Notes under the pieces: generated by a model
Database searches by the model: none
Told to the model about the DNA's origin: nothing
What the model saw: the letters and a program-made list of their open reading frames with translations, nothing else
Translations under genes and position numbers: made by a program
Assembly: GCF_003324165.1 (NCBI RefSeq)
Contig: NW_025407910.1
Coordinates: 1-21,270, forward strand
Direction: 5' to 3'
DNA from: Naegleria lovaniensis
Lineage: Eukaryota > Heterolobosea > Eutetramitea > Acrasida > Naegleriidae
DNA length: 21,270 bases
Shown: positions 1 to 19,403 of the stretch, in pieces
Layout: the number at the start of each line of letters is the position of its first letter
Numbering within the stretch: the first letter of the stretch is position 1

Positions 1-1184
1 GAAGAATGATTCAAAATAAAATGTAAGGACATGGGGTAAATCTTTTGAAACACCTCCAAATGCATCAATTCTAAATAGTCTTGGGGCCACTTGTTCAATC
101 CAATTTCATCTTTCAATTCGTAGAATCTTCTCTTAACGGTTGAGAGAGAACATCCGAGAATTTGAGAAGCCTTTTGTTGAGTCAGATGGAGCACTTGGAG
201 CATTTCGTGTTTGGTGATGGAAGAAACAGCTCTTCGTTGAGCTCGTTGTTGTTTGAGATGAGAAGAGCAGGTGGTTGAGTGATTGATATGGAAAGTAGGG
301 ACATTGGGTTCATGATGATTTTGAATGGATGAAGTTGTTGTGGTTGCTGTAGGTGTGGTGGATCCACCCTCCCACAATCCAAAACCATACACGTACTGAG
401 TATTGGGCGTAAGATTGCTGGCACCATTATTGTTGGATGATGACTTGTTGTTGGAATTACCATTCTTATTGGCCTCGGCTGCCAGCAAATGTTTGTATTG
501 ATACTTTCTCTTAATGACCTTCTTTTTGGAAGAGGAAGACTTCTTTGCAATTTTAGAGGGTGGAAGATGGTGAGTGTTGCTGGTGGTTGTGGTTGCAGCT
601 TGTTGGATGTCGTTCCCCAATGATGGACTTGTTGATTCTGCTCTTGCGGATGAGGAGGCTGATCGATGGAGAGTTGGATTGTATTCTTGGGTCCTGTTCA
701 ACTCAGCTGAATTATAGGGATGATATCTCTTTCCATCATCAAGCACCTCCTGAGGATGAATCGATACCTGTTGTTGTTGTTGGCATTTAGGATAATTCAA
801 TGTTCCGTTGTTGCTCATCCGTATTCTGTCATCATGATGACTTTCATAACCTGAACTTGGATACATGACACTTGTTGAGTAGAAGGAATGATGCTCGGTA
901 CAACCCGATGGAGATGAATACTCATTGTATGGCTGTGAGGAAAACTCCTCTCGTATGGGTATCTTGTATGGACGAGCTCCATGGATCAATGGTTGTTCTT
1001 GTTGGTATTCTTGCAGGACCTCTCTTCTATGACTCGAGAGATTTACATTCTGGGAAGATGCACCGAATCGAGTCAAAGATGCATACATGTTGGGTCGAGG
1101 TGAGGAATAATGGTGGAATTTGTTGCTTGGATTGCTGTTCTCTTGATTGGTAATTGGAATGACAGAGGAGGTTGTGTTCGTCAT
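1..1184 (-). CDS. RWP-RK-like domain protein, putative transcription factor (partial, C-terminus off left edge)
   Basis: An uninterrupted minus-strand frame of 394 codons runs from an ATG at 1184-1182 to the window edge; an in-frame TGA lies upstream of this ATG, so it is the first possible start. The N-terminal 200 residues are rich in Ser, Asn, Gln, His and Tyr. A lysine/arginine-rich stretch at residues 211-231 (KIAKK...KKKVIKRK) could be a nuclear localisation signal. Residues about 321-370 match the RWP-RK family pattern: a helix-turn-helix-like region ending in LGCSLSTVKRRFYEL, followed by IGLNKWP. In the canonical family the end reads GIxRWPxRK; here it is NKWPQDY, so the signature is only partly kept. 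RWP-RK proteins are DNA-binding regulators known from plants, algae and some amoebae. Function as a transcription factor is inferred. The poly-Gln/Asn content is typical of protist nuclear proteins and says little about function. Confidence 0.75.
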   Translation of the reverse strand, partial: MTNTTSSVIPITNQENSNPSNKFHHYSSPRPNMYASLTRFGASSQNVNLSSHRREVLQEYQQEQPLIHGARPYKIPIREEFSSQPYNEYSSPSGCTEHHSFYSTSVMYPSSGYESHHDDRIRMSNNGTLNYPKCQQQQQVSIHPQEVLDDGKRYHPYNSAELNRTQEYNPTLHRSASSSARAESTSPSLGNDIQQAATTTTSNTHHLPPSKIAKKSSSSKKKVIKRKYQYKHLLAAEANKNGNSNNKSSSNNNGASNLTPNTQYVYGFGLWEGGSTTPTATTTTSSIQNHHEPNVPTFHINHSTTCSSHLKQQRAQRRAVSSITKHEMLQVLHLTQQKASQILGCSLSTVKRRFYELKDEIGLNKWPQDYLELMHLEVFQKIYPMSLHFILNHS

Positions 1185-1568
1185 CAAGAGAACTATGGTA
1201 ATGAATGATCACGAAGAAGTATTGAATCAAAGAATCGTTTAGTAGGTGGTTCTATTAGTAATGGCGCTTTGTATGAAAGGTTCGTCTCTGTGAGTAGTTG
1301 TTGAGTTTGAAAGTCAATCAACAACCGTGAAGGAGATGGCGTTGTTTTTGTTTTTGTTGAGATGCAATTTGTGGTGGTGTCTAGAGGGTGAAAGTAATGT
1401 TCTGAACAGAGATGTCTTGTGTGGTTGTGAGTGCAGGAGTTGTTGTCCTTTTCAAGAATGCATGTCCGTTTGCATATGTGCTTGTCGTTTAAGGATGGCA
1501 TTTGACAGCTTCTGACACCTGCGTAATGTCAGCGTAGCGAAAATGGCGTTGTGATTGCGGCCTAATAA
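1185..1568. other. Upstream region of the RWP-RK-like gene, no clear gene
   Basis: This stretch separates the RWP-RK start codon from the left end of the transposon. All frames are broken or code for unconvincing peptides. It presumably holds the 5' UTR and promoter of the minus-strand gene. A 6-bp inverted repeat, CTGACA (1512-1517) with TGTCAG (1527-1532), is present but too short to interpret. I searched both strands here for the missing N-terminal part of the DZIP1-like gene that lies beyond the transposon and found nothing resembling it. Confidence 0.5.
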
Positions 1569-1583
1569 CTGGCGTTCCCAACT
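1569..1583 (+). repeat. Left terminal inverted repeat of the transposon
   Basis: CTGGCGTTCCCAACT, the exact reverse complement of 5438-5452. A looser inward continuation reaches about 1613 and includes GTGTAACATT, matching GTGTTACAAT at the other end. Confidence 0.9.
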
Positions 1584-1669
1584 ACCACTTCGCTGGTGTA
1601 ACATTCCTTTATTTGGTTCATTCGGGCTACGTCTCAGTGTTTTTGTTACATTAGCTTTTTGTTGTTCGC

Positions 1670-1717
1670 CCAGCAAAAGCTGCTTTGTCTTTGTTGAAGG
1701 ACAAAGGCTTCTGCTGG
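1670..1717. repeat. Imperfect hairpin in the transposon's left non-coding part
   Basis: The arm at 1670-1689 (CCAGCAAAAGC...CTTTGTC) pairs with the arm at 1700-1717 (GACAAAG...CTGCTGG), with one mismatch and a 2-nt bulge, around a 10-nt loop. It lies about 150 bp beyond the stop codon of the transposase, so it could fall in that transcript's 3' region or be a subterminal structural element. The role is unknown. Confidence 0.6.
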
Positions 1718-1869
1718 AGCTATAATGAATAATAAAACGACTTGAGGTATGTTGTTGTGATTAGAAAAATACGGTGTAATTGTGGTCGGAAGAAATAAAT
1801 AGGTGAACAATTTTAAACGTGTTCCAATTTTTGGACGAACTTTTTTTGTGATGAAAAATGCTTGACATT

Positions 1870-4800
1870 TTATTGCATGTCTTGAGACGAAGCCACCACC
1901 TGGCTCAGCTGGGAATACGAAACGAGGTTTTTTGTTTTCTTTGCAAATACGTAAAAAGGAGGTGACAACAACTGATAATTTCCAACAATCACAGCAATTT
2001 GTTTTTGATAAAGCTTGGTGCTGGTTGTTGATGAAAATTGTCCAATTAATTTAAATTTGAATGGATCCGTCTGATTTGGTGCCACAAATATTTTAAATGA
2101 GTTAATTGGTTCAGAATGTCGAGATGCATTTTCATTGTTCTCATTGAAATTGCGAACCTCTACGGTTGCATTGCTCAAAGAAATATGATTAGTCTTAATT
2201 TCAAATTCTACGGGCTTTTTAAGCAAAAATGCCGCAATATGATTTTGAGCATGAATTAATGAGTCGTGTGTTTGAATAATGGTAAAACTGATGTCGTCGG
2301 TTAATGTAAGTCGTTCTGTTAAGTTTGGCAAAACTTCACTTGTTTCAATATGGAAAACAGGAAGTGAAATGTTGTAGTAATTGGAAATGCTTGTCTCCAT
2401 GAAATCGGTGGCAAATCCGGCCCTATAGTCATGTCTTGACTGATGGTATGATTGACGGATGGAGTTGACACGATGTTGTAAACATCGCAATTGTAAGTCT
2501 TTCGCACAAATTAAATCTTGATCTGTAAAACTATAAGAAATGGATGTCACGCTTTCTCTAGCTTGCTTTCTTTCATTATTAAAGTCAACAAATTGTTTTT
2601 CAGTCATTCTCATCAAAATTTGTTGGTTAATTTGACTAGGGGCATCACAATATTTCCTCTTTCTATCGTTATTGTATGAAAGATATACACATTCTTTTTT
2701 CACTAATTTGATTTTCATGTTTGAGTAACTTCTATGATAGTCCAATACTGTGGTTCTTTTTGAATAATCACGTGACTCTCCGAAAAATCCTTCAAGAGAA
2801 CGTGTTCCCAATAAAGACAAATCAAAAACTGCATCTTGTGGAATAATTCTGATCAATTTCTGAATTGTTTTGATGTTATGGATAATGATGTTTTTTGTGA
2901 GGGTTCCGGATAATGTAAAATTATTATTCTTATTGGAAATAATGACGTCTTGGAAAACGGTATCCCACTCATTCAAATAGTCCAAATTTTCCTTAAGAAC
3001 TTGCAACACTTCGTGCAAATTGTGTGAAGATGTTCCATCATGATTTTTGTCATCGTAAACATGAAATAAATCATGTATCGCTTTTAAGTACTTATAGAAT
3101 CCTAAATATCGATAGTTGGTTCTCTCGTTCAATAATCGTAATTTTTCAAGTAACTGTAAATTGCATACATCACGTAATACATCCTCAGATTGATCATCAT
3201 ATTTGATAAACGAGCTCCGTTTAACTATTTTACACCACTCTAAAGGTTGTTGTCTATATATTTCATCGAGTGTGTTCAATTCAAATCGTTGTAAAATAGA
3301 ACAAGAAATTTTGGTGACAGCTATGTCTTGATTGCTAAAATTTGCCACACACACTTTACCAATGTTAGTATGAAGGGTTTCACTCAACAACGTAACACTT
3401 AATTCGTTGTCATTGCTGCTATGATAGAAAGAAATGCCTCCAGAGTTAAAATTCCGTGGTTCTTTTTCTTTCCATTCAAATGAAATTGTGTCTTTGTCAT
3501 TCACTATGAAGGAAAGTGGTATGTTGGTCGCTTGTGTTCTTTGAATAACAATTTTCATCAAATGGCAACCGTTTCCGTTGTCGTTGGAAGAAATACAAGC
3601 AGAGGAATGGCGTGCAATTTGAAGGTTTGGAGCACCTACTTTAGTGGCAACCGGATATAATTTTGGTCTCCCATTAATTGCATTCCTCATGTTTTTGCAA
3701 TGGTGACTGTAGCAAAAATGATGTAGTTCATTTGGGCTCGATGTGAAATATTTGTAATTAGCAGACCCTGCATCTGACACAGTACAGACGATGTTTCGAG
3801 TATATGTGTCACGAAATTCAGAAATCGTGTCTCTAATGGTTTGTTCAGTTTCAGTAGTGCATACTTTGAAGTTTCCAGGAATTCGAACTTCACCGTTAAT
3901 ACTGCAATATAAAGTTTGAACAATTTTTTCAGCTAAAAAACCCTTGGGTGGAAAATTCGGACTCTGAGCTAGTGCAGTACAATCACTAATCTTCAATGGA
4001 CCTTCATTGGCACCGTATACAAGCCCAAGCTTGGTATTGATTCCTAAATGCGGTGTTACATCTACTGCATCAATTTGAACAAGACCAAAATTTTGATTTT
4101 CAATAACCTTCATTTTTTCTACTAGCTTATCAAAGTCATCTTTGTCTAGTTTAGTATTCCCTTCTCCATATGATGCGGTGTGAAAATGATGGTCGAGTGT
4201 GGATGAACAAGGTAGGACTAAGTTACATCTTTCAGAAGAGGGTTCAAATTCTTGTCCTCGTTTCAACCCTCTCGCCAATGCTTCATACGCATTGTATCCC
4301 ATGATAACCAATAAATCTTGAGCAAAACAAAGAACAGATGGGCTCCATCTATGGCCTCTACTGTCTTTGCAAATTAATTGTGAAAAAGCATCACGAAGAT
4401 ATGTGAAAAAGAAAGTTCGAGGTACTAATTTGCGACTACCTAACACCTGAAAAAACAATTTTTTCAATTCTTGAATATCCTCATCAAATATATCACATTC
4501 CGAATAATAACTATCATCATCGTTATTTTGTGATTTAAAATCAGCATGGTCTACAAAATTATGAGAGATGGTGTCGGACTTGGTATTTACAATTGATGAG
4601 TGTGTTGGAATAAATTTGTTGTTAATTAGTTGTTGCAGCATGTAATACGGTGCTGTTTGTTCTTTTGTTGAATATGACAACGTGATGTAGTCTTCAGCAA
4701 AACCATGATCCAGGATTTTATGTAATTCAATAACGCCGACATTTTTTTCTGGTTCGAGTAATTTCATGATGGTTGAACTAGAATAACGTTGTGACGTTGT

Positions 4801-5310
4801 TGAGGTTTGAGGTGGGTCTTCGCAAGCTGTACTTGTTTTGGAGTGTTTACGTTTTTGACGAATTCGCATCAGCTCGTCATGACACTCTTTCAATTTCAAA
4901 TAGCCTTGAAAATGTAGTTTGTTGATCCATTCTGATGTTAACTCTTGATTTTGTCTTTGATTTTGAAATTTTGGGTCAGAGTAAATGTTATAGATAGCAC
5001 TATCCTCGTCCGGGTCAATGCAATCAGTAACATATTGTGCAATCTTTGTTGAATTGTCAACCTGGAATTTGCAACAGTATAGAACAAATGGGACTCGTTT
5101 GTTGTGTGTGATGAGGTATGAGAAATATAGTTCGAGATGGCGATGGATGGTATTAAAATCCTTGCGATGAAATCCACATTGATCAATAATATCTTCTATT
5201 AAATGTTCGACATTAATATATTGATGGACTGCGAATAGCATTGTTTTGATGGCAACATGATATTCCGGTCTCAACAGACCGACAAAGGCGTTTCGTTCAT
5301 GTTTTAACAT
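1870..5310 (-). CDS. P-element/THAP9-like transposase
   Basis: A 1146-aa protein read from ATG 5310-5308, preceded by an A-rich context. The frame is open 34 codons further upstream but without an ATG. Recognised in order: a helical segment HRWSPSVLCFAQDLL (about residue 320) followed by a TYR/AY-type helix and LPCSSTLDHHF, as in the region before the RNase H fold of THAP9 and P transposases; QIDAVDV with Asp at about 414-417 and LGLVYGANEGP after it; CTVSDAGSAN with Asp about 513; CYSHHCKNMRNAI about 533-545, equivalent to the family's PHLLKNIRN; and LEGFFGESRD with Glu about 840, equivalent to the LENFF motif. These supply a plausible DDE triad. No N-terminal THAP zinc finger is visible. 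An insert (about 585-680) and the last 150 residues look beta-rich and are not recognised. No frameshift or stop, so the gene may still be functional. Confidence 0.75.
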   Translation of the reverse strand: MLKHERNAFVGLLRPEYHVAIKTMLFAVHQYINVEHLIEDIIDQCGFHRKDFNTIHRHLELYFSYLITHNKRVPFVLYCCKFQVDNSTKIAQYVTDCIDPDEDSAIYNIYSDPKFQNQRQNQELTSEWINKLHFQGYLKLKECHDELMRIRQKRKHSKTSTACEDPPQTSTTSQRYSSSTIMKLLEPEKNVGVIELHKILDHGFAEDYITLSYSTKEQTAPYYMLQQLINNKFIPTHSSIVNTKSDTISHNFVDHADFKSQNNDDDSYYSECDIFDEDIQELKKLFFQVLGSRKLVPRTFFFTYLRDAFSQLICKDSRGHRWSPSVLCFAQDLLVIMGYNAYEALARGLKRGQEFEPSSERCNLVLPCSSTLDHHFHTASYGEGNTKLDKDDFDKLVEKMKVIENQNFGLVQIDAVDVTPHLGINTKLGLVYGANEGPLKISDCTALAQSPNFPPKGFLAEKIVQTLYCSINGEVRIPGNFKVCTTETEQTIRDTISEFRDTYTRNIVCTVSDAGSANYKYFTSSPNELHHFCYSHHCKNMRNAINGRPKLYPVATKVGAPNLQIARHSSACISSNDNGNGCHLMKIVIQRTQATNIPLSFIVNDKDTISFEWKEKEPRNFNSGGISFYHSSNDNELSVTLLSETLHTNIGKVCVANFSNQDIAVTKISCSILQRFELNTLDEIYRQQPLEWCKIVKRSSFIKYDDQSEDVLRDVCNLQLLEKLRLLNERTNYRYLGFYKYLKAIHDLFHVYDDKNHDGTSSHNLHEVLQVLKENLDYLNEWDTVFQDVIISNKNNNFTLSGTLTKNIIIHNIKTIQKLIRIIPQDAVFDLSLLGTRSLEGFFGESRDYSKRTTVLDYHRSYSNMKIKLVKKECVYLSYNNDRKRKYCDAPSQINQQILMRMTEKQFVDFNNERKQARESVTSISYSFTDQDLICAKDLQLRCLQHRVNSIRQSYHQSRHDYRAGFATDFMETSISNYYNISLPVFHIETSEVLPNLTERLTLTDDISFTIIQTHDSLIHAQNHIAAFLLKKPVEFEIKTNHISLSNATVEVRNFNENNENASRHSEPINSFKIFVAPNQTDPFKFKLIGQFSSTTSTKLYQKQIAVIVGNYQLLSPPFYVFAKKTKNLVSYSQLSQVVASSQDMQ

Positions 5311-5437
5311 TTTTATTGAAAAAACCTCCAGCAAACACCAGAACAAAACTTCGACAGCCTGCTCGACCTTTTTTAAAATGGTTAGGATTCTAAAAAATAA
5401 AGTGCTTTCCAAATGCTATTGTAACACTATTTCTGGG

Positions 5438-5452
5438 AGTTGGGAACGCCAG
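5438..5452 (-). repeat. Right terminal inverted repeat of the transposon
   Basis: AGTTGGGAACGCCAG, exact complement of the left end. Its last base, G5452, is the first base of a GAT codon in the frame of the truncated DZIP1-like gene, so the coding sequence runs directly into the element. Confidence 0.9.
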
Positions 5453-8400
5453 ATTTTAACGAAACCAATTTTGTACAGGTCTTTAGAATTTCTCAATTAA
5501 TTATTGAGTACTTGTTATACGTTCAAAATTATTTATCCACCAAAAAGTAAGTGATTGTGTTGAGAGTTGGTCAATGTAACGCTTGTACAAGAAAAGAAAT
5601 AGAAGCGAATGTGAAAACAATCATCCAAGATTTTGAGGAGGCTAAACTGAGCTTAGTGAAAAAGTCGGAGGAAGTAGCATATTTAAAGAAAGAACTGAAA
5701 CGAAAAAAGAAAGCGCTTTATGCTTATGAATGTGTGTTCGGAACCAATCCGGAAAAAGCCAGAATTTTATTGATGTCACAAAGCAATCCAAGTCAACCCT
5801 TACCTCAAACACAACCTCAACAATCGAGTTCTCGGTCTGAAAGAGAAGAAACTTTTGGTGAACTACGGGGTGATATTAAACGTATGCAAGAAGCGTTATT
5901 CTCACAACTAGAAAACACAATAGAGAAAAAACAAAGTCAGCTTGAAAAAGAAAATCAAAAGAAGGTAAGTGCTGAACGGTTAGAAATAATCGATCACTTT
6001 ATTGGTTTCAGTTGGACTATTTTCAAAACGAGTTTGAAAAATTTACAGAAAGCTTTAAAAAGCAACAAGAAAATTTATACTCTACCATAGCAAAGTCCGT
6101 GACTAAGTTTACAGAAAGTGACACCTCCCAAAATGCTGATTCAGCGAGTAGAGATGAATTTCTTCAACTGTCTACTCATATTCAAAACCTTATTCAACAA
6201 AACAATCAACAAATGCTCACCTCTTTCGAAAGAAAACTGAACGATCTCTCTGCATCTACCAAGCAAGTGAAGAAAGCTGAAAATGATCTTGAAGTTGTGG
6301 AACTAAAGAAAAAGTTGGACACGGTGATGAACGTATTGCAAGCCAAGCAAATGGAACAAGTAAAACCGGTAGAGGTTGTGGTAAACAAAATGAGTCGAGT
6401 GGAATCGACCCCAGCACAAGAAGAAACAATCGTTGTTAAGGCCAAGCCAAAACATGAAATTGTGAAAAAAGAGGAGCCCGTCGTTGTTGCAGTTCAAAGA
6501 AAGGAAGAGCCTCCCAAGAAAGAAAAAGTAGATTTTAAACCAAAAGAGCCAAAGAAAGAGCCAATGAAGGAACCAGTCAAAGCCCAACCTATGGAAGTTT
6601 CAAAACCAAAGGATGAACAAAAAGACCCTCCTAAATCAAGTGTAAGATCGACATCTCCACCAACGAAAAATGCAACGATAGTGGAGAGCAGTTCAAGATC
6701 TTCTGTCGTCATTGAACAACCTAAAGCGGTGAATGCTCAACCCGTTTCAGTTCCAAAGCCACTAGAAGATCCAAAACCACAACCACCCATATCACATCCA
6801 TCAGAAGACGAAAACGATCATGATCAAAGTTACACAACAACAACAACAAGTGAGACATCAGAGACAACCAATACCACGGCAACGAGCATTGATGTTAGCA
6901 CCCTAGGTCTTAAAGAGAGAATTTACAGAGATATTGAGCTTGGGAAAGTATTTGAAGAATTTGATGACAACATTGCATATCAACATGAAGAGGACAAACC
7001 CTGGCTTACTTCCAAATTTAAACAAAATCCAATCTTTAGAGATTTACAAAAAACAGAAACACAAACGCTGGTTGATCACGAATTACATGTCAGAGGAATT
7101 GATTCCGATCAAAAAGGCATGTCTGAATCAGAATATGCTCGTGGTTTAAAGTCACTCCAAAAAGAACGTGATTCTGTAGTTAAAAACAATCCCGATCATT
7201 TGGTAATTATGAATGCTTTGAGAGAAAAAGTCGACAATATTGTGGCTGAATCAAGCAAGAGTATTCATCCTCAAGTGGCTTTCAGTCAACACATTGATGA
7301 CATTATCAACAAGATACAAAAGATGAATACTTTTGATGAAGAGAAGAGAAAACTTCCATTAGAAACTCCAAAGACACCTCAATCACCATTCCCAGTAGTA
7401 GGAGTCAAAGACGATTCTGAGGACGACGAAAAGGACACACCCACTGTTAAAATACCTCAAAAACGTAATACTGATATTCACAAGTCAGAGAATGTTGTAA
7501 AAACAATGGCGGGTGCCTTAATGCAGGAAGCTCTCAAAAAGAAGAAGGAAATGGATGAAAAGAAGGAAAAACCAGTCACTGCGCTCGATGCATCCAATAG
7601 TAAACAGAACCAAATTGAAGAACAGAAAGAGCGGAGAGTGGACCAACAAACTACTCTCAAATCGATGGATTTCACAAAGAACGTTAGTGATGACGAGCAA
7701 GAGGAAGCTAAGAGTGTGAACAATACAAAAATTATTGAAGCTGAATTTGAGGATGAACTCATTGAGGATGATCATGAGATCATTGGCTCGACGGTGTATG
7801 AGGAAGTAGGACATGGAGATGAAGATGACTCCCAATACACGTATGAATATGAAACTGCAACGGAACAAGATCCAAATGAAACCAAGCGAGGGGATGTTAC
7901 AGTTCAGGAGGAGGAAATGGATGAATCTTTTGTAAAATCTTTGAAGAATAAGGATACCATTCAGACCTTCTCAGCTGTCGACGAAGATTCTGATATTTCT
8001 GAAGCACGTGTTGGCGGCAATCAGCAGCCATTTAAGAGCGCACCCAACCTACAGAAAGCTAGTACCCACTTGGAACCAGAAGAAGAGAGCACAGTTACGA
8101 AAGTGGTAAGCAAAGTTTCAAAGCTGAAAGCTCACTCCAGTGATGAAGACGACAGCGATGATGACGACTTACCATTCACAAAAGGAAGTTCATCTCTGAC
8201 CAACGCTGCTCTTGGCAACAAGTTTAAAAGTTTGAACAACATGTGGGAAGACATGAACAAGAAGAAGAATGTATCGGTGGATGACAGTTTGGATTTACCT
8301 GGGTCTGACGACTTTGATATTTCGTCATTCAAGCAACAGGTTCCTACTTCCAAAAACACTGCACGTGCTGGCGCCTCAATGCTTTCGTCAGATGTTTCTG

Positions 8401-8456
8401 GTTTTATTAAAACGCTTAAAGAGGAGGAGGACGATTTAGACACCGAAGAGCTGTAG
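5453..8456 (+). CDS. DZIP1/Iguana-like cilium assembly protein, 5'-truncated at the transposon
   Basis: Three exons: 5453-5546, 5592-5964 and 6012-8456, about 969 residues. Exon 1 encodes FVQVFRISQLIIEYLLYVQ, the hallmark helix of the DZIP1 N-terminal domain (family form: K.FRLAQL.IEYLL.SQ.YL). Exon 2 gives a coiled coil ending in KKELKRKKKALYAYE, as in DZIP1. Then follow charged coiled coil, a long acidic Lys/Glu/Pro/Ser-rich linker, a segment near 6900-7260 with HVRGIDSDQKGMSES (DZIP1 form: GI..D..GIS...) and a C-terminal DDFDISSF motif near 8310 (DZIP1: DWDISSLE). DZIP1 acts at the basal body and transition zone in ciliogenesis. The usual C2H2 zinc finger after the KRRKKM segment is absent. 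There is no ATG between the transposon end and exon 1; an in-frame stop lies just inside the element, so the start and perhaps the first 80-100 residues are missing. The first in-frame ATG is 5773. Confidence 0.85.
5547..5591 (+). other. Intron 1 of the DZIP1-like gene (45 nt)
   Basis: GTAAGT at 5547 and TACAAG ending at 5591. Removal joins ...YLSTK to KEIEAN in frame (phase 2) and removes an in-frame TAA that is part of the donor site. Joining restores a continuous DZIP1-type coiled coil. Confidence 0.8.
5965..6011 (+). other. Intron 2 of the DZIP1-like gene (47 nt)
   Basis: GTAAGT at 5965 and a pyrimidine-rich TTTCAG ending at 6011, phase 0. Removal joins ...KENQKK to LDYFQNEF, continuing the coiled coil into the long third exon. 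Confidence 0.9.
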
Positions 8457-8575
8457 CTCGTACGAATAAAAAAAGCATATTGCAGAATTTGCACAAATAT
8501 TTACTTTTTCCTTTTCAAGTTGAGCTGCACCCACCCATAAAATACGTTCCAAAATTGAAAATACATTCAAAAGAA

Positions 8576-8824
8576 ATGAAATCTCTTCCCTTCATCGTAA
8601 AATCGATCTTGATATTTGTGTTTGTGATCATTCTTGCTTCGATTTTCTCTACTGTTTCGTGCCAACGTGCAATGAAGCAGGAAGAGTTGATTAAGCAAGT
8701 CAAGCAAGAAGGAAAAGAATTGCCAACTAAACCAAATCTACCTCGTCATATTATGGATTGTCCATTAAACCTGGAACACTTTCCTGAATACAAAAAATGT
8801 TACAACACTCCCCTACACTTTTAA
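8576..8824 (+). CDS. Small hypothetical membrane or secreted protein (82 aa)
   Basis: The ATG at 8576 follows an A-rich leader, about 120 bp after the DZIP1-like stop. The frame is open upstream but has no earlier ATG. Residues about 5-26 are strongly hydrophobic (FIVKSILIFVFVIILASIF) and end in STVSCQRA, which fits either a signal peptide cleaved after SCQ or a signal anchor. The remaining 50 residues are basic and polar, with two cysteines (MDC and KKC). I do not recognise the family. It could be a small secreted protein or an accessory subunit of a membrane complex; the sequence does not decide. Confidence 0.6.
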   Translation: MKSLPFIVKSILIFVFVIILASIFSTVSCQRAMKQEELIKQVKQEGKELPTKPNLPRHIMDCPLNLEHFPEYKKCYNTPLHF

Positions 8825-8928
8825 AATTTGTGTTGTTGTAAAATCAAGAAATAAATAAGATTTTGTGCCATGGATTTGAATGTTACCATTTTCTCAAACT
8901 TCCATTCATGTTACACTGAAACCTATCG

Positions 8929-11172
8929 CTAATCAACAATTTTATAGCTCTCATGTATATTTGGTGTTCCTACTCGGAATTCTAGAGGCCCATTATACAT
9001 TAAGAGCCGATCCGCATCGTTATCCCAATTGAATAAAGCCGGTCCACAATTGTCTCCAAAAGCGTTGAGTTCGATAATTTTCACTAGTCTCTGCTCTAAA
9101 TTCAAAACAACAAAATCCACACAACAATCATCCAATGGAAGAATTTTCGAAAATTGATTGTCAAACCTCTCAACAATAATATCCTTAATTTTTTTCCATT
9201 CATCCATTGTAACTTGAGGAAAATAAGATGTACTAAAATACTGAGACATTGTAGTTATTTTTCGGTTCCTCACAAATGTTCGCACCTCCCTCCATATTGG
9301 TAAATCAGTCCATTCTCTAACCACAATTTGTATCGGCATTTCATCTGGAATGTGGCCACTTTCGGAAATGCTTTGCAACATGATTGATAAATCAACATGA
9401 GATCTATAACTTGTGCTCATTAAATTAATGAATTCCTTTCCAGAAGTTACTTTCATACATTTTTGAGCACATATTTGTGAGATGGCGGATTGATACTTGT
9501 TATTCTTGATCTTCAAGTCTCCATTTTCTTGATTTTCCATTTCCAAGTTGTATTTTTCATGAAACTCTAATACCATTTCATGGACCATTCCTTCATAGTT
9601 TTTAGCTCTAAATGCAGCGTCTTTAGGAGATCTATGACTGAGTTTCACGAATGCAGAGCCTAAAAACGTATTGCTATGAATAATTCTGTCAATTTTTTCT
9701 GATAGTCTATTAAGTGTTTCTTCATCGTCCTCATTGACAGTACTTGATCCAAAAAACCATCGCTCATACTCTTTAACAACAGCTTTCGCCTCATTAAAGG
9801 TCAAAGATAGAAATTTTGTTTTAAAAGTATGATCACCTAGCTGGGTCATCCAGTTTTTACAATCTGTCAATTCTATATAGATGGATAAACTATCTGTAAC
9901 AAATTGTTTTTTGTCTATCGTCACAAACCAATTATCATTATTGCTTGACTGTTGAGAATAATCTTGTGCCAGGTATGGGAATGGAATCATTATCTTCAAC
10001 AATGTAAAAGTTGCGTCTCTCAGTGGATAAAAATAAGAAAATAATAAATACATTATAAAAGGAAGGAACCAGTCCAACTCTAATAGCTTGGCTTTGATTG
10101 AGCATAGATCAATTAGTCTAAATTCAGAAAATATGGAAACAAAAAGGAGTATGAAATCTGTCAATAACCTGAGCTGGTCAAGGGAAGGATTAAAATAAAT
10201 GTCCAAAAATTCTTCCATGACCTGATGAATCCAAAATTGTTGTTCATGGTCATGCTTTTCTCCGGTAATTTCACACAAATGAATAAATGGTGAATTAGAG
10301 CGTGGTTTTGTGGTGATGTGCTGAATAAAACACATAACCGTGATGTTTTTCTCGTGTTCGTCTGAAAGTGAATTAATATCTCTCCAAACTTTGAGTACAT
10401 CCCCAAGATCTGACATATTATCTATAGATGTGTTTTGGTAACATTGAAACTCTCCAAGCCTGTATTTAATTGGATACTTCGGAGATGGTGTCTGAGTTTC
10501 TTCTAACGTTGATGATTGATCCAATGTGTCCTCTTCCTTGCCAAGAGACAATTCTGGAAGAAAATCGAATAAATCTCCTGTTTTTCCACTAGAATTGCTA
10601 TTGGCAACTTGTTGAAATTGGGAAGCATCAAGACTCCTTAATTCTTGGATCATTTCTTTCCATCCAGGTCTGAAAGAATACTCTCCATCTCCATCCGAGA
10701 AGTGTAATTTCATAAAATCCTTCATAAACTTTTCATAAACAATCATTTGATCCAATCCCATATGGGGAGAGATCAGTAACCGAGTCATCCAATGAAAGGC
10801 TTGATCGTTCCTGAAAAGAAAATATTTCGTTGAGCGATGATGATGGACGCAGCTAGGATGATGGTACGGGCACATTTTTTCATCATGGAAGCCTTTCCTG
10901 CAGGCAAAATAGCAATCCTCTCGAGAGGGCAGTGTAATGGAAAGACGGATCATCAGAAGATCAAGTAGTAGCTCACTCTCGGGTGCATTCTCTGACAGCA
11001 GAAATGTCTTGTAACAAACTCCCAGAAAAATAACAACACATGTTACTTCTACTAACCCATCATAGAAGAATCCATGATGAGCATGATGCACGTGTGTGTG
11101 ATTCAAAAACAAAATCACTCGTGACATTCTCACATTCACATTGGATGTATGGTTGTTTGAATCCATTGTCAT
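8929..11172 (-). CDS. CDC123/D123-family (ATP-grasp fold) protein with long N-terminal extension
   Basis: Read from ATG 11172 the protein has 747 residues; other possible starts are ATG 11166 and ATG 10953. The C-terminal 260 residues match the CDC123 family: FVKLSHRSPKDAAF (about 508-521), a VREWTDL...REVRTFV block (about 618-635) followed by SQY, CCVDFVV (about 684), and IELNAFGDNCGPALFNW (about 700-716), the family's DFNP...LFxW motif with Asp replaced by Glu. CDC123 proteins assist assembly of translation initiation factor eIF2 and have an ATP-grasp fold. Typical members are about 330-360 aa, so roughly 480 residues here are extra. That part has a His/Cys cluster (CYFACRKGF...CPYHHPSCVHHH, about 87-112) and hydrophobic helices but no domain I recognise. 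It is convergent with the preceding small gene and head-to-head with the receptor kinase. Whether it works on eIF2 or is a divergent paralogue is open. Confidence 0.8.
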   Translation of the reverse strand: MTMDSNNHTSNVNVRMSRVILFLNHTHVHHAHHGFFYDGLVEVTCVVIFLGVCYKTFLLSENAPESELLLDLLMIRLSITLPSREDCYFACRKGFHDEKMCPYHHPSCVHHHRSTKYFLFRNDQAFHWMTRLLISPHMGLDQMIVYEKFMKDFMKLHFSDGDGEYSFRPGWKEMIQELRSLDASQFQQVANSNSSGKTGDLFDFLPELSLGKEEDTLDQSSTLEETQTPSPKYPIKYRLGEFQCYQNTSIDNMSDLGDVLKVWRDINSLSDEHEKNITVMCFIQHITTKPRSNSPFIHLCEITGEKHDHEQQFWIHQVMEEFLDIYFNPSLDQLRLLTDFILLFVSIFSEFRLIDLCSIKAKLLELDWFLPFIMYLLFSYFYPLRDATFTLLKIMIPFPYLAQDYSQQSSNNDNWFVTIDKKQFVTDSLSIYIELTDCKNWMTQLGDHTFKTKFLSLTFNEAKAVVKEYERWFFGSSTVNEDDEETLNRLSEKIDRIIHSNTFLGSAFVKLSHRSPKDAAFRAKNYEGMVHEMVLEFHEKYNLEMENQENGDLKIKNNKYQSAISQICAQKCMKVTSGKEFINLMSTSYRSHVDLSIMLQSISESGHIPDEMPIQIVVREWTDLPIWREVRTFVRNRKITTMSQYFSTSYFPQVTMDEWKKIKDIIVERFDNQFSKILPLDDCCVDFVVLNLEQRLVKIIELNAFGDNCGPALFNWDNDADRLLMYNGPLEFRVGTPNIHESYKIVD

Positions 11173-14100
11173 CTGGACCACATGTCCACAAGCAACCTTA
11201 TGGATCCTCCTCCTATTCCATCATCCTTTCAAAAATTAATATTCTCCTATCGGGATTATTATACCTGATCATTTGGATGCCAATACTTTCATTATATCTT
11301 CACAGACATCAAGATACAGAAAATTATCATTTTCGAAGGTCCGTCGGCAATGATTCATGGTGGAGTAGCGGCAGTAGTAGTAACAATGTTTTTGCTTTGG
11401 TACAGTCAAATGTGGACTGGAACCAAGCAAGTGATAATGGTGGTGGACCTTTCAACAGAACCATGATGATCCATTCATCAACGACTCGTCGAAAAACAAC
11501 CTCCAAACAACAGCAACAACAACTCTCTCATTTCGCTTGTTACCGTGACAATTTTACAAATTTTGACCTTGTCTTTCATGTCGGAAATAATGAAACTGTC
11601 GAAAAAAAAGGACATTTTCACACAATGACTGGCCTCTTTCAATACATCTCATATATCATGTTGGAGGATTCAGACCAATATACATGTCTCAGGTATAACA
11701 TGACAGTTTTTATTACAAGTGATATTGTAGAAGAACTAAATCATCGAAACACAGTGTGTGGAAATACCATTCCCAGTTTTGATGCTTCAAAAAGTATTGT
11801 CAGAGTATTTATGAATATTAGAAGTGAAAATTCTGAGGACAAGAAAGTATTGCAATGTTCAAGTGATAATCCAGTATTTCTCTTTGATTCAGCAAGTATT
11901 GCATTTTTAACCTTCTCTCACATGAGTCTCAAGGAAATGATGATTCGACCTGTAACAATCACCAATTCCATAATTACGAGCTCGGTCATTCAACTGTTAC
12001 ATGGTATTGATGAAGCTGGAATTTCAGATACCAAGCTTGTAATTACTCAAACAAAAGCGTCTGAGGTTGGAATTTTAACATTACATAATGTCACCATGCA
12101 TTCTGGATCCATGTCTATAAGTAATTGTGCTAAAATTCATTTTGAATTTTTTTATTTCCGTGAAGATGTCACACTAGACGTGATACCCATTTTAAAAGTC
12201 TCAAACTCTGAGACCTTTTACGTGGCATGGTCCACATTCATATTTGGAGACTATTTTTCTATTCAAATGGAAGCAGTCATTGAGGCAATATTTTTCAGCT
12301 GTAAATTTGATTTTATTCATTCACCGAATTCTCCTTTAATTTCTTCATCCGAGTATGGAATGGTGGGAAATTTATTATTTAGGTTTTATTTAATTGGGTG
12401 TTCTTTCAACAACAGAAATCATGATCATGGATGGCTCAAGATCATTAGTGCAGGAGTGACAAATATTGAAAATGTCCATGTTGCAAATAATACGTGCAGC
12501 AAGGCTGAAGGAATTTTTTATTTTTATTTATGCCAAACCATTTACATATCAGATTCCTTATTCACGAATAATACGGCCAAGCACAGTGGTAGTTTGTTAT
12601 TCCTAAGCTCTAAAACGTTCCATGTTTTGAATACTAAATTTATTGACAATAACTCTGTAAAAAGTGGTGGAGCAGTGACCGTGCTAGAATGTCACAATTC
12701 TGCACAATTAACATTTAAGAGGACGTTATTCATTCGTAACGCGGCAAATAATGGAAATGGAGGAGGCATTGCTATCATTGATACGAAATCATTTGTCATC
12801 ATTTCAGATGTAATCATGTCACAGAATAGAGCTACTCTTGGAGGTGGTGCTATTTATTGCAACAATGTCACCTACCTCTACATTTCGAAATCTCAATTTG
12901 ATTACAATGTTGCTCATCACCATGACAATGACGAAAAGTGTATCACAACGTCATTTTTATCAGGTGGAAGCGGAGGAGCCATGTCTTTGTTTCAAACCCC
13001 TTTGGAAATGACTGACGTCAAACTGATAGCAAATAAGGCAACTAGGGGTGGAGCACTTTTTGCAACTTCTAAAGCCCTGATGTACGTTACTGAATTTACA
13101 AATAATGTGGCATTGGTTGCAGGAGGTGCATGTTTCTTTGTCAAAAATTCCTCACAAGTATATCAATGGGACGTATTCATGCAAAACAATCAGGCCACAG
13201 TTTATGGACAAAATACTGCAACTCCCATCTCCACTTTTTCTCAAGAGGTGCTGGAACCAATGGCGAACAATGGGAAACTAGTGTTGTATCCTGGAGCAAC
13301 ATTGGTGTTAAAATTTACGGACATGTACGACCGTAACAATAATTTCATACCGATCATGTATGAATGTCCAATATCCTCCATTTCAGATAGCCGTTTTTAT
13401 CTTGTGAGCAATAATTCACATTTTGAAAGTAATGTGATTTATTTCACATTAAGGATTGCGAGTCGTGTTGAAATTAATATAGATGAACATCCTGTTGATA
13501 CTGAAATTTTGATCAGTTTCACAGAATCAGAAACGACTAATATCAGCGTGACCATTGGCCCTTGTCCCATGGATTATATCATTAATGATGGACAGTGTGA
13601 AATGGGGTTTCCACTTTCCAAAGTCATTCCTGGAATAGTTGTTGGCTCCATTCTACTCTTATTGGTTGGAATTATATTAGGTTCATGTATGTGCTCTGCA
13701 TGTGCTTTCAGTGTTTGGAGAATTTTTAAAAACGCCAGAAGCTTGTACGTGAGACAACAGTCAGAAAGGGAAATTGAAGAAAAATTACTCAATTACGATG
13801 TTTCATTCTCTCATTATGGATCTCTAAATTCTGATACATCTTCTACCATTGAAAAGAATACTCATTATGTCATTCCTGTGACTGAGTTGAAAATTGAAAA
13901 GAAAATTGGAGAAGGAGCAAGTGGAAGGTTTGTAATTGAATGTTGTTTGAGAAACAGATGAATTCCAAAACTATTCTACAAAATTAGTGTGTACAAAGCA
14001 AAATATAACATGATGGATGTTGCAGTGAAAACGATCATTAGGAAAGATGATACTCATCAAGATTTTGAAAAAGAAGTAATGCTACTGGTTAAGCTTAGAC

Positions 14101-15144
14101 ATCCAAACATTATTTGTTTTTATGGAATTTGTATTTCAGAAAGCCAACTCTGTATTGTGGTCGAGTTAGGTCAAAATGGAAGTTTAGAACAAATGATAAA
14201 AGATATACGAAAAGGAAAAATTAAGAAGAAGTTTAGGGACAAACTCAAAATATTGATTGGTGTTGCAAATGGAATGAAATATTTGCACGGACTGCAACCT
14301 CACTATTTAATCCATAGAGATTTGAAACCTGCTAATATTATTTTAGATCAATCCTACACACCAAAGGTATGTCTACAAAAATGTTGATCATGAAACATGT
14401 CATATTGATCGATCAATATTTGTATTTAAGGTTTGTGACTTTGGGTAAGTGTCTATTTTCATTATCAAGACTTGTTGTACATTGACCATTATAATGAATA
14501 CTAAAGATTGAGTCGTGTTGTATCCATGAATACACAAACAAATTCCTTGACAGGAAATGTTGGTACCCTACTCTACATGTAAGTCTTCTTTTTTCATTGA
14601 ATTCAATCTTTTAATTTTTACACACACTTCATGAAAAGGAGTCCTGTAAGTGTTGAAACTCACCATTAATGAACTGCTATAACAACAATTTCTTTAATAA
14701 TGATAGGAATTAATCTTGGAAGAAGATTCTGAAACGAACAAGCTTGCACGAGAAAATGCAACAAAAATTGATGTCTACTCCTATGCCATTATCATGTACG
14801 AATTATTCTTTGAGGAAACTCCTTACTGGAATGAAGATAGTGAAAAAATTAATTACTTTCATCATTGCAATAGCGATCAAAAGAAAGTGAAAGCATTCAA
14901 TCTTTTATATCAAGTTGCTAATCATGAAAAACGTCCTCTCATTCCATTCAAAGATCATGAAGAAATGAAACAGTGGTGTGAAAAATTTATGGTCCATGAC
15001 AACACTTCTAATGAAGACGTGTTCATTGGAGTGGACATGTATGTGAAACTCATGCAACAATGTTGGTCCTCAAATCCCACAGAAAGACCTTCATTCGAGA
15101 GAATTATGCACAAGTTGACAGAGATTTATAATTTGGAATTTTAG
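11040..15144 (+). CDS. Receptor-like TKL protein kinase with PMP-like beta-helix ectodomain
   Basis: Six exons: 11040-13927, 13988-14366, 14431-14444, 14507-14578, 14639-14645 and 14707-15144, giving 1265 residues in one frame. ATG 11145 is an alternative start (1230 residues), favoured by the overlap with the neighbouring gene. Near the N-terminus is a hydrophobic signal/anchor segment (LSGLLYLIIWMPILSLYL). The ectodomain contains N-glycosylation sequons and repeated strands of the type NNTAKHSGSLLF, NNSVKSGGAVTV, NRATLGGGAIYC and NKATRGGALFA (about residues 500-700), like chlamydial PMP/right-handed beta-helix repeats. One membrane helix follows (about 861-885). The kinase has a GEGASGSVYKA loop, VAVK, HRDLKPANI, CDFG, MSPE, DVYSYAIIMYE and CW...P.ERPSF, so all catalytic residues are present and it is TKL-like. 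Probably a surface receptor; the ligand is unknown. Confidence 0.93.
13928..13987 (+). other. Kinase gene intron 1 (60 nt)
   Basis: GTTTGT donor and TTAG acceptor. It splits an AG|T serine codon inside the glycine-rich loop; splicing gives GEGASGS followed by VYKAKY, whereas read-through gives an early stop at 13961. Confidence 0.9.
14367..14430 (+). other. Kinase gene intron 2 (64 nt)
   Basis: GTATGT donor and TTTAAG acceptor, phase 0, between ...SYTPK and VCDFG. Confidence 0.9.
14431..14444 (+). other. 14-nt exon encoding the DFG motif
   Basis: GTTTGTGACTTTGG lies between an AAG acceptor and a GTAAGT donor. It encodes VCDF plus two bases of the Gly codon, the Mg-binding motif of the kinase. 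Confidence 0.9.
14445..14506 (+). other. Kinase gene intron 3 (62 nt)
   Basis: GTAAGT donor and TAAAG acceptor, splitting the Gly codon of DFG (GG|A). The next exon (14507-14578) encodes the activation segment LSRVVS...GNVGTLLY. Confidence 0.9.
14579..14638 (+). other. Kinase gene intron 4 (60 nt)
   Basis: GTAAGT donor after CTACAT and GAAAAG acceptor before the 7-nt microexon. Confidence 0.85.
14639..14645 (+). other. 7-nt microexon encoding part of the kinase APE-type motif
   Basis: GAGTCCT is preceded by AG and followed by GTAAGT. It completes ATG and supplies Ser-Pro, giving GTLLYMSPELIL across three exons, the expected TKL sequence after the activation loop. Skipping it gives AT|G AAT TAA, an immediate stop. 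Confidence 0.9.
14646..14706 (+). other. Kinase gene intron 5 (61 nt)
   Basis: GTAAGT donor directly after the microexon and GATAG acceptor before GAATTAATC, phase 0. Confidence 0.85.
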
Positions 15145-15245
15145 AAGAAGTGTTTGCGTGCCAATACCTTCAATACCAGCTGTTCAAATATTTGTTAAAA
15201 AAAAGATAAAAAAAATTCCTTCTTTTATCATACATTCAATCGGCC

Positions 15246-16553
15246 ATGTCCTCTTCAACGAGCAGTAGTAGTAGCGGCAACAACATGAGTAGCTACTCAA
15301 GTGCAGACAATTATTTACACCTCCTTACATCTGTAAATCCAACCGATTTCATCTGCACATCGGAACGTGCTTCTCAAATTGTAAAATTATTTTCGGAACA
15401 CTATCTACCACTTCCCTTCTCCTCCAATGAAGACAAGTCTGATCTAACAGAAGAAACCACTCTAATCCTGCTTGTTCCATATTTTATTGGTTTGGCAACA
15501 TTACAAATTAGGCAAGAACGAAGTCCTAATCAACCCTTCGATATGGAAGCACACAAAAGGATTCGGACTATTCAACTGAAACAAGCCAAACAGCAATTTA
15601 TCCATTTTTTAAATTTAGTGGTACAATATGAACAACTGAATGATGAATATTTATCTTGGGTTCTTCCTTTCACAATGCATGATGATGACGAGGAGGAGTT
15701 ACAACAAGTCAAGAAAAAACAAGACGAATTTCAAAAATTAATGAGTGACAGAAATCAAATGATACTGAGAATGAAATCAAAAACCTTTCTCGAGAATAAT
15801 TTATTTTTAAATTGTGAAGCATTATCAGATATGGAAATTTCAAATTTATTGACGGAGCAAACAGATGAAATCACCAATGAACACAAGCATCAAGTTTCTG
15901 ATAAAATCAAAAAAAGAATGCTTCCTATCAGAGAATACATTCAATTTTGCGTATTGGACACTATTGAACAGCTTTCATCCATCAACAGAGAAGAACAAAT
16001 GCTAGCGGCTACATCACAGGCCCAACAACAACTTAACAGACCATCACAACAAGTCAATAGCAGTGGTAGTAGTGGAATTTCACACCTTAAAGCAACTTCT
16101 ATCAATGATATTTTGTCCAATAGGTCACAACTTTCGCAAATGGGGTACAACATGGTACTTTTACCGAATGCCTCAAGTGATAAAGCCCAGAAGCAACACA
16201 AGCAAGGAAATAATTATTTACAACGTACTGCCGCTTCAAATTCGGCGTCACAAGGTGTGGCTAGCTCTGCATTCAGCTCATACAATACACAAAGAACAAT
16301 CCGAGAGAACATGAAGGATAAGGTTTTCGGTAGCTATGTTCCACCTCCAACCATGTCCATTGAAGAATTCGCTAGACAAGAAATGGAAGAGCTACATCAA
16401 AGACATGAACGAGAAAAACTGCAAGCTCAACAACAAACCAAAAAGAAGGAAGACGACGAAACAGAAGAGGATGAAGAAGAGCTCAAGAAAAAGAGAGCAT
16501 GGGATGACTGGAAAGATGATCATGTCAAAGGATCTGGTAATATGAGAGATTAA
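15246..16553 (+). CDS. TAP42/IGBP1 (alpha4) family PP2A-associated regulator
   Basis: A 435-aa intronless frame from ATG 15246. The N-terminal half after a Ser-rich start is helical and contains LTEETTLILLVPYFIGLATLQIRQ-type sequence, corresponding to the TPR-like helical bundle that binds PP2A-family catalytic subunits. The C-terminus is diagnostic: PTMSIEEFARQEMEEL (about residues 366-380), a Lys/Glu/Asp-rich linker, then RAWDDWKDDHVKGSGN, matching the family's RxWDDWKDxxPxGxGN ending. Length is close to the 340-400 aa norm, with an extra Gln/Ser-rich loop at about 265-340. TAP42/alpha4 stabilises free PP2A, PP4 and PP6 catalytic subunits and acts in TOR signalling in yeast and animals. It starts about 100 bp after the receptor kinase and converges on the next gene with only 28 bp between stop codons. 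Confidence 0.92.
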   Translation: MSSSTSSSSSGNNMSSYSSADNYLHLLTSVNPTDFICTSERASQIVKLFSEHYLPLPFSSNEDKSDLTEETTLILLVPYFIGLATLQIRQERSPNQPFDMEAHKRIRTIQLKQAKQQFIHFLNLVVQYEQLNDEYLSWVLPFTMHDDDEEELQQVKKKQDEFQKLMSDRNQMILRMKSKTFLENNLFLNCEALSDMEISNLLTEQTDEITNEHKHQVSDKIKKRMLPIREYIQFCVLDTIEQLSSINREEQMLAATSQAQQQLNRPSQQVNSSGSSGISHLKATSINDILSNRSQLSQMGYNMVLLPNASSDKAQKQHKQGNNYLQRTAASNSASQGVASSAFSSYNTQRTIRENMKDKVFGSYVPPPTMSIEEFARQEMEELHQRHEREKLQAQQQTKKKEDDETEEDEEELKKKRAWDDWKDDHVKGSGNMRD

Positions 16554-16581
16554 AATAACTTGTTCTATTCTGTGTGTCAAC

Positions 16582-18194
16582 TTAATTCTCAATCTGACTT
16601 TTAGGTTCTGATTGAATAGAATATGGATCGATCCATTGAATTTCACATTTAAGCATTGGTTCGTCACAAACAAAGCACTCACTTGGGAAAGAAAGCTGAA
16701 CTTCAGAGTCTTGTTGAGGGATGATACTCTCTTGTGCAACTTGCACGCTAGAAGAAACAATTGATAGAGGCTGAAAATGGTCACACGAAAAGTAAATGAG
16801 GTTGCTTGAATACGTGGAATCGTGAGTGTAATTGGAAATGAATTTAAATTCATCTCCGGTAATAATTCTGTAAGGACTAGTAAACCCAAATCTACTAGTG
16901 ATAAACTTGTGAAGAATTGTGTCCTTGTTGTTGACGCCAATGTTTCCACAAAGTGTTATTCCAAGTCTTAGTTTAGGTTGCTGTTGTACTCGGGTAGCAA
17001 TGTAATTTGTAAAACATTTAAATATGGCAACCAATTGGGTAAGCAAAAATTTGGTTTCCAGGTCAAAATTCTTTTCTAATTGAATCCTTTCGTCAACATC
17101 TGAAAGTGAATGCAAAGCAAAGTTAATGACCAAGACATTCAACTGATCGAACAAAATTTGCGACCGTAATCTTGTAGTCCTTCTATCCTCCAGTAACTCA
17201 TGATTAAACACTTTTAACAGCTCTGCATTGTCCTTCATTTCAAACTCGGCTATGCTGCAGAGAGACGGCAGAGTATTGTTTCGAATCTTTTCTTGTTGAG
17301 TTTCACATAGCAGTTTCAGTTGTGTAATGTCAACTTCTTCATTCGAGGACTCCCCAAAATTTCTTAAAGTTTGTTGCAGTGTTTTAAAAACAGAATCATC
17401 ATATTCAAGCTCAACAACTTTTGTATCTGCAAATCTGCTAAACTTGCTTCTCTTGTAAAAAATACAATTTCCAGCATTGGAGCTATCTAGAATGTGGATA
17501 CATTTGAATAGCCAATTTTTGAGAGATCTAAATTCCAGTCGTTATATTCCGTGAGTGTGACATTTTGCAGAGACAGCATGTCAATATCTGACTGAATGAT
17601 TTCTCTATAAATCAATCTCTTTCTATAAATTGAGTATGAAATAAAGTCCAAGTCTGGTAGTGTACGATTTTTTACGCCTCTATAATCCAACGTATAGCTT
17701 CCAACAGAAAAAACAAAATCTGGTTTGTAATATGTCAATAAAAGTCTCGTCTTTTGTCTGTAATCCAAGATATTTTCATCCATAGTCGAAATAATTGTTC
17801 TGCGTGGTATAGATGTTGGCATTTGAATTACTGGTTTTGTTATAATGTCTTTACAAAAACATTTTCCTGTCTTTAAATAAAATTCGTCATCAAATAGCAC
17901 TACTCTTAACCGTAGTCTATAATTTAAATCATCACTTGTGGGAACATAGCTTAAACCATTGTACAAGGAAATGCTACTTGTTTCATCTTTTTTGTATGTT
18001 TTTGTGGGATCGCTATTTGTTTCTCGGAACCATTCAATGATACAAGTTCCCAAATTTTTAATATACAAGGTCGGAGCCATGTCTACTCCAACGATCGGTG
18101 TAGGAAATTCAAAGGATATTTTGATAATGTCTTTCTCTTCCAAGAAGGAAATGGATCGTTGCTGAAACTGTTGTGCAGAATTTGAATTGCCCAT
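16582..18194 (-). CDS. PDE12/CCR4-type EEP-fold protein, catalytically degenerate, with one frameshift
   Basis: The first part reads from ATG 18194 to a stop at 17487-17489; the second continues in another frame from about 17500 to the stop at 16582-16584. Joined they give about 535 residues, close to PDE12 (about 600). PDE12-like features: IYRKRLIYREIIQSDIDML before LQNV (family LQEV, catalytic Glu), GNCIFYKRSKF (family GCAIFxKxSKF), LGITLCGNIGVNN (family CGDFN) and CDHFQPL (family SDHxxL). The metal-binding Glu, Asp and Asn are changed to Asn, Asn and Gly; only the His of the last motif is kept, and the NTHLY motif is not recognisable. Activity is therefore unlikely. MGNSNS at the start fits N-myristoylation. 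The frameshift lies between about 17490 and 17545; no usable intron spans it. It may be a pseudo-enzyme with a sequence error, or a decaying gene. Confidence 0.78.
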
Positions 18195-18878
18195 GTTGAT
18201 ATCGCAATTTAGTAAAAGAGATAAATTAAAATAGATGATGCGGAAATTGTTGTCAATAACAATATCGGGTTTGCCTCCTTTGAAGTAGGAGTCCAATGTA
18301 CAAATGACAACTTTGTTGAATTGTTGTTTCAGAAGAGAACACCAGGTGCTACCCAGCGAGAGCAGATTTGCTGTCAATGATGTGATTATTTTTTTCAAAA
18401 TTTTTATTTGAATTGTTGTTCAATAGTTTTCAAATTCCGTTATCCACCCGCATTGGAATAACATGATGCTATTCGGTCCAATTTAAACATGTTTCAAAGA
18501 GCACGTTCTCAAAGAAAATACAACATTGAGTGCAGTCCGTATGATTCTTTAAACTTTAAGCCTCAAATACGTTTATCAACTATTTAATTGGATGGCATGA
18601 GTCGTTGCGCTGTCTATCATAAATGTTGAAAACAACCAGTTCGTGGTGGAAAAGATTTTGTTGTAATAATTTTCAAAATTGTTTTTTAATTTGAAGCACA
18701 ATTTGGATTGTCTAAGAAGACAATGGCTAGGGAAGCATCAGATTATTACTTGTTTTAGATCACTGTACAATATTATTTTCACTCTAGAATGTCATTCGAA
18801 TGACTGTCAGATATTGTTGTTGTATTCTTGATCTTTGATACAATAATTAAATTATGAATAATGATTCTACGTTTGAAA
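18195..18878. other. Intergenic region upstream of the PDE12-like gene
   Basis: Between the start of the PDE12-like gene and the stop of the 99-aa gene, both on the minus strand. The first 204 bases stay open in the frame of the PDE12-like gene but contain no ATG, so they may be 5' UTR or, less likely, part of an upstream exon. The rest is AT-rich with no reading frame, RNA gene or repeat that I can support. Confidence 0.4.
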
Positions 18879-19178
18879 TTATTTGCTGCTATGCGTATTC
18901 ATAGGTGTAACAGGAAAAGCAATATCTAGTGTTTTTGCTGGAGCGTGAGCAGGTATAGACTTTCGCTTATTCGTACCCGTGTTAGTATGTTGAGCCTTTG
19001 AAATACTGGATAAAAATTCTCCAAAGGAAGCCTTTGGTTTTTCTTTCTTGTAAAGAACGGAATCATGATGAACATCAGCTTCGTAGCCATATATTTTAGC
19101 TAATGTTTCTTCCTTCTTTTGAAGCTCCGAGAACGAGCGTCCGATGGAAGGTTGATGCGAAGTGGACGAAGAGGACAT
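18879..19178 (-). CDS. Hypothetical protein, 99 aa
   Basis: A frame from ATG 19178-19176 in a strong A-rich context (AAAAAATG on the coding strand) to TAA. The product is polar and basic, starts with a Ser-rich stretch, has a short amphipathic segment (SELQKKEETLAKIYGYEAD, about residues 17-35), a patch KKEKPKASFGEFLSSISKA (about 44-62) and a Lys/Arg run TNKRKS. No signal peptide or membrane segment. I do not recognise a family. The clear start context, length and coding-like composition support a real gene; it shares a 225-bp upstream region with the divergent USP-like gene. Confidence 0.55.
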   Translation of the reverse strand: MSSSSTSHQPSIGRSFSELQKKEETLAKIYGYEADVHHDSVLYKKEKPKASFGEFLSSISKAQHTNTGTNKRKSIPAHAPAKTLDIAFPVTPMNTHSSK

Positions 19179-19403
19179 TTTTTGTTTGATTCAAATATTT
19201 ATTGTTCATATTTTAAAATTAAAATTATTCATTTACAATTGGCGCAGTTAGAGCCTTTGCTGTTCATGTGATTTGCAAAATATACTTTGTCTTCATCTAT
19301 GAACACAGCAATGGTCTTCTAAAGTTTCGAATTGATTTCTAACCCAGTTTGTTTGATGATCAAGGCAGATTCGAGTTCGAAATAAATATTATGCGGTAAC
19401 GTG
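19179..19403. promoter_or_regulatory. Probable bidirectional promoter region
   Basis: 225 bp between two divergent start codons (19178 minus, 19404 plus). AT-rich, with no motif I can name. The assignment is by position only. Confidence 0.35.

Follow-up and report, generated by a model that had tools for sequence, protein, structure and literature searches.

A transposon end at a DZIP1-like coding exon of Naegleria lovaniensis: a probable insertion allele on a contig most likely joined through the repeat

Introduction

What has become of a gene when a DNA transposon stops at the very base where one of its coding exons begins? This question is raised by the window analyzed here, a stretch of 21,270 nucleotides that makes up one entire contig of Naegleria lovaniensis (C88, positions 1-21270) in a genome of 30,690,286 bases and 97 contigs. 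A 284-residue piece of enolase from this genome differs at 2 of 284 residues from PDB 7ugh, an N. fowleri protein, which supports a Naegleria host. The exon belongs to a gene resembling DZIP1, whose family is connected with ciliogenesis and the ciliary base in zebrafish, Drosophila, and mammalian cells, as described in the available portions of PMC2890509, PMC6904220, and PMC4393111. The original prediction offered two readings of the locus: a cilium gene broken by a P-type transposon, or a gene that now starts inside or downstream of the element. Comparison with the rest of the genome points to a different answer for the contig and a qualified one for the gene.

The element-exon junction

The transposon occupies positions 1569-5452 (3,884 bp, with its transposase frame on the minus strand) and is bounded by inverted ends of 19 bp each that match at 18 of 19 positions. 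The left end (1569-1587) reads CTGGCGTTCCCAACTACCA on the plus strand and the right end (5434-5452) reads CTGGCGTTCCCAACTCCCA on the minus strand. These ends are not random sequence, as the genome contains the pattern CTGGCGTTCCCAACTNCCA 38 times (19 per strand) and the reversed control pattern not once. Position 5452 is the last base of the element and the DZIP1-type exon starts at the next one, with ATTTTAACGAAACC adjoining the element's right end. The frame directly past the element reads DFNETNFVQVFRISQLIIEYLLYVQNYLSTKK, and the DZIP1 frame (VFRISQLIIEYLL) has its V codon at 5479, 26 bases beyond the element. Followed backwards, this frame stays open across the junction and 28 bases into the element, where it meets a TAA stop at 5422-5424; between that stop and the DZIP1 helix there is no ATG. 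Frame reading thus confirms the earlier description of a helix 26 bp from the terminal repeat, an unbroken frame to the last base of the element, no intervening ATG, and an in-frame stop inside the element. The statement that a P-type end lies within a DZIP1-like exon holds for the position of the end, but the label "P-type" found no support from profiles.

On the plus strand of the window, the remainder of coding exon 1 (5453-5546) begins inside codon 170 and is predicted to end at a GTAAGT where the open frame allows it. It would be followed by intron 1 (5547-5591), exon 2 (5592-5964), intron 2 (5965-6011), and exon 3 with the stop codon (6012-8456), all limits being taken from splice signals and the open reading frame. 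The residues encoded from the junction onward match Pfam Dzip-like_N at profile positions 53-118 of 118 only (E = 2.8e-12), so the window carries just the second part of this domain. A promoter scan at the junction gave three promoter-like sites against 0.8 expected, although the consensus used is bacterial and uninformative for a eukaryote.

An intact copy without the element

A genome search with positions 5440-6600 of the window returned two places, the window's own contig and C36:310747-311894. The whole right arm of the window (5453-21270, plus strand) represents the same locus as C36:310748-326571, and the two align with no mismatches and 14 one-base gaps, all of them within the last 3.8 kb. 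The gaps define an indel-rich tail at 17496-20750 (a feature of neither strand) and mostly fall within short single-base runs. Genes at 16582-18419 and 19386-21201 seem fragmented in the window because of such one-base indels relative to C36, which has single frames of 612 and 601 aa there. Elsewhere in the right arm, a large gene on the plus strand (11034-15144, frames judged by eye) appears to encode, over several exons, a repeat-like extracellular part, a membrane-spanning stretch, and protein-kinase motifs. A tRNA scan found none.

Across the insertion site C36 is free of the element and reads GATCTGAGGTATTTTAACGAAACC. Its exon extends 5′ in open frame to an ATG at C36:310239, so that the 169 codons missing from the window stand in one run with the window's exon and the insertion point falls inside codon 170 of an otherwise open gene. 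The three-exon reading of this gene comes to 1,140 letters including the stop sign. Dzip-like_N is complete in the C36 copy (residues 120-237, profile positions 1-118 of 118, E = 3e-30), which places the protein with the DZIP1/Iguana family. The C-terminal two thirds match Pfam only below threshold, and a ciliary role in Naegleria would be a prediction from family membership. A search of open-access literature found no paper treating both Naegleria and DZIP1.

An empty site with a complete DZIP1 N-terminus had been named beforehand as the test of disruption, and C36 from 310239 provides exactly that. The "transposon-broken cilium gene" is therefore supported for one allele, but the same genome also has an intact copy, which limits the break to one allele or a subset of cells at most. 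The other proposed outcome, a gene whose start now lies within the element or shortly after it, has in its favor a frame that remains open for 28 bases into the transposon; set against the missing ATG between the in-frame stop and the helix, and against an intact C36 gene whose ATG lies 169 codons upstream, such a start is unnecessary and we give it hardly any credence. Two smaller candidates were also set aside. An upstream exon to the left of the element within the window was rejected, as the left arm comes from another locus and the 5′ part is uninterrupted on C36, and the AG before 5479 is not needed as a splice acceptor, the C36 frame being open across it.

Origin of the left arm

The left arm of the window (1-1568) originates from a locus on C37 and not from the DZIP1 locus. 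On its minus strand lies the 5′ portion of an RWP-RK-like gene (frame 3-1208), whose RWP-RK match of 24.9 bits is below the Pfam cut-off of 29.3. Aligned to C37 in reverse orientation, the arm is 97.0% identical, with 11 mismatches and 37 gap positions in 1580 columns. Apart from point changes, it has an insertion of 13 bases and a deletion of 12 relative to C37, the kind of differences expected of an alternative allele or a paralogue; at 3% from C37, the arm could be a paralogue instead of the other allele. The C37 sequence continues through the site without the element, and the genome-wide listing of the end pattern has no element ends on C37.

A simple DZIP1 insertion allele would have both flanks from the DZIP1 locus and a target-site duplication. 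In the window the left flank is CCTAATAA, from C37, and the DZIP1 side is ATTTTAAC; the two have no target-site duplication in common. The left junction of the DZIP1 insertion was not found among the element ends in the genome, so that one side of this insertion is seen.

Other copies of the element

Twenty places were compared. Among the 17 other complete copies, 16 are indistinguishable from the window's along 3,884 bp, as is the one on C25 along 3,883 bp, an identity that is a weaker sign of recent movement than it appears because polishing can make repeat copies more alike. The copies on C92 and C94 are cut by contig ends (the latter with 10 gaps and no mismatch), a further copy on C38 is missing its left end, and C13, which other searches show to be a diverged fragment, gave no match in the 20-place comparison. 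The truncated copy at C38:404191-407770 has the same stretch of about 40 flanking bases, CTCCCTTGTCTTTAATGATTGGTGGCGGGACCGATTTGCAT, to its left and right, a state that imperfect transposition or repair would leave. The small contigs C92 and C94, which end inside the element, repeat the left flanks of C83 (no mismatches, 1 gap) and C46 (no mismatches, 23 gaps), respectively, with differences that are indels only.

Exact 8-bp duplications flank 9 of the 18 complete copies when the window's is included (C5, C12, C15, C21, C23, C26, C32 twice, and C46). The duplication is 7 bp on C9 and 5-6 bp on C25, where one end base has been lost. The remaining seven copies (C22, C48, C70, C83, C85, C88, and C93) have no duplication, which means that the state of the window's element recurs in six others. 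All seven have a contig end within 21,226 bases, whereas 1 of the 11 copies with a duplication has one less than 25 kb away (Fisher p = 0.00025, with a cut-off picked post hoc; Mann-Whitney p = 0.0014). Closeness to a contig end is no proof, because the exception, C26, has an exact duplication 143 bases from the end.

The window's left flank and the right flank of the C22 copy adjoin on C37 with CTAATAA in common (7 bases, not 8), and the left flank on C93 and the right flank on C48 have 8 bases in common, ATAGGCTG. In both cases the matching bases across contigs indicate a single insertion split over two contigs. For 8 of the 11 further flanks, a second place in the genome was found over the whole length or nearly so: C22-left at C49 (95%), C48-left at C48:144 kb, C70-left and C83-right at two places in C2, C70-right at C38 (95%), C83-left at C12, C85-right at C3, and C93-right at C27. 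C85-left matched itself only, among 40 scored of 52 candidates, and C48-right and C93-left lie within another repeat. Counting the C37 site (C88-left, C22-right) and the C36 site (C88-right), a counterpart exists for 10 of the 12 distinct sites of insertion. No exact element ends are listed at these counterparts, except at C38, where the left-truncated copy ends about 55 bp away. Where both flanks could be traced (C83, C70, C22, and C88), they led to two different contigs each time. C37-type flanks are 1-3% off C37, and the right arm of the window matches C36 along 15.8 kb without a single mismatch, in keeping with a recent event.

Could the join have arisen in a chromosome? Identical copies of DNA transposons are known to undergo ectopic exchange, and a recombination between two copies that joined the DZIP1 and RWP-RK loci would likewise show two loci connected by one complete element without matching duplications. 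However, the reciprocal product, in which the element would link the DZIP1 N-terminus to the C37 right flank, is absent among the element ends in the genome, and the C37 right flank is joined to a third locus instead, in C22. The same state in six other copies, with all seven within 21.3 kb of a contig end, also argues against a true rearrangement, and we consider one unlikely. At the other extreme, the element-exon junction itself might be an artefact, with no cell having a DZIP1 insertion. Recovery of only one side of this insertion, on a short contig with an indel-rich tail, would agree with that possibility, yet the break falls at the exact last base of the element, which is rare for chance joins, and the two other split insertions with matching 7- or 8-bp duplications demonstrate that single junctions can be true insertion ends. 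We judge a wholly artefactual junction to be very improbable.

The explanation that we favor, with considerable confidence, is a polymorphic insertion in the DZIP1-like gene combined with a contig that is an assembly chimera through the repeat. A DNA transposon would have landed in coding exon 1, either in one of the chromosome copies or in part of the cells, with the intact DZIP1-like copy remaining on C36. The assembler would then have placed the element-bearing reads in a short side contig and, with many identical copies present, the assembly would have run through the element into the left flank of another insertion, the one at the C37 locus. Chimeric side contigs induced by repeats are a familiar kind of product in long-read assemblies of heterozygous genomes, and the window's contig resembles them in being short, in having an identical repeat between the flanks of two loci, and in its indel-rich tail. 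As a whole, C88 is thus most likely an assembly product, the wrong join having presumably been made by the assembler and not in the cell. The DZIP1 insertion is probably real in one allele or in some cells, because each single junction coincides exactly with an element end and the two split pairs demonstrate that ends of this kind arise by true insertion. It would be heterozygous or mosaic and would be expected to destroy the product of that copy. Naegleria is mainly a heterozygous diploid according to the accessible part of PMC9928731, and insertions on one chromosome copy are accordingly to be expected.

Superfamily of the element

The transposase frame (1870-5415, minus strand) runs for 1181 aa from stop to stop, with its first ATG at 5310. 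Its acidic residues D449, D548, and E875 (in LEGFF) stand in motifs that we take to be P/THAP9-like. The 8-bp target-site duplications are a feature of the P-element superfamily that this element shares, as are its short inverted ends; 8-bp duplications are also made by hAT and some other superfamilies. Unlike the P-element/THAP9 superfamily, the element has a frame of 1181 aa in one run that matched no P-element or THAP family in Pfam at E up to 1, no TNP-like domain, and no P-element structure sequence among PDB sequences; pieces of the frame gave no Pfam match either. For THAP in particular, the result of no Pfam match at E up to 1 is one that a divergent zinc finger would escape. A single-sequence fold of the transposase had a mean pLDDT of 31.8, too low for use, and one scan of viral contigs confirmed no relatives of the element. 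For comparison, the available text of PMC7776569 gives Drosophila P as having 31-bp ends and 8-bp duplications and the zebrafish THAP9 element as having 13-bp ends and 8-bp duplications. With its motifs and 8-bp duplications, a P-type assignment is plausible and our best guess from sequence.

A search of the genome with PF21787 gave no match to the window's element, only to a second repeat family (C2:561 kb and 14 other places; C93:649-888), to which the window's transposase has a weak collinear match (E = 0.85). Frames in this second family reach 1038 aa and match PF21787 (TNP-like RNase H) weakly, at 18.3 bits for the protein, below the cut-off; at the C-terminus there is a subthreshold exonuclease match (RNase_T, E = 0.036). 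The inverted arms of the family measure at least 122 bases and are separated by about 3.2 kb. One copy of this family has received an insertion of the window's element, at the site split between C93-left and C48-right. The open-access literature on Naegleria transposons, in the portions available, names no element of this kind.

Implications

The window's contig should not be read as a single locus, and anyone deducing gene order, promoter capture, or a broken cilium gene from this contig alone would be misled. We suggest tentatively, as something short of an even chance, that the element may belong to a previously undescribed Naegleria transposon family that is recently or still mobile, with insertions that are polymorphic in one sequenced culture and include a natural DZIP1 knockout allele and, less likely, real element-mediated interchromosomal exchanges. 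Should the insertions prove polymorphic, its 18 complete copies, of which 17 (counting that of the window) are the same in every one of 3,884 bp, would point to recent mobility in a lineage with few genetic tools. An allele carrying the DZIP1 insertion would permit asking whether the flagella of Naegleria need DZIP1.
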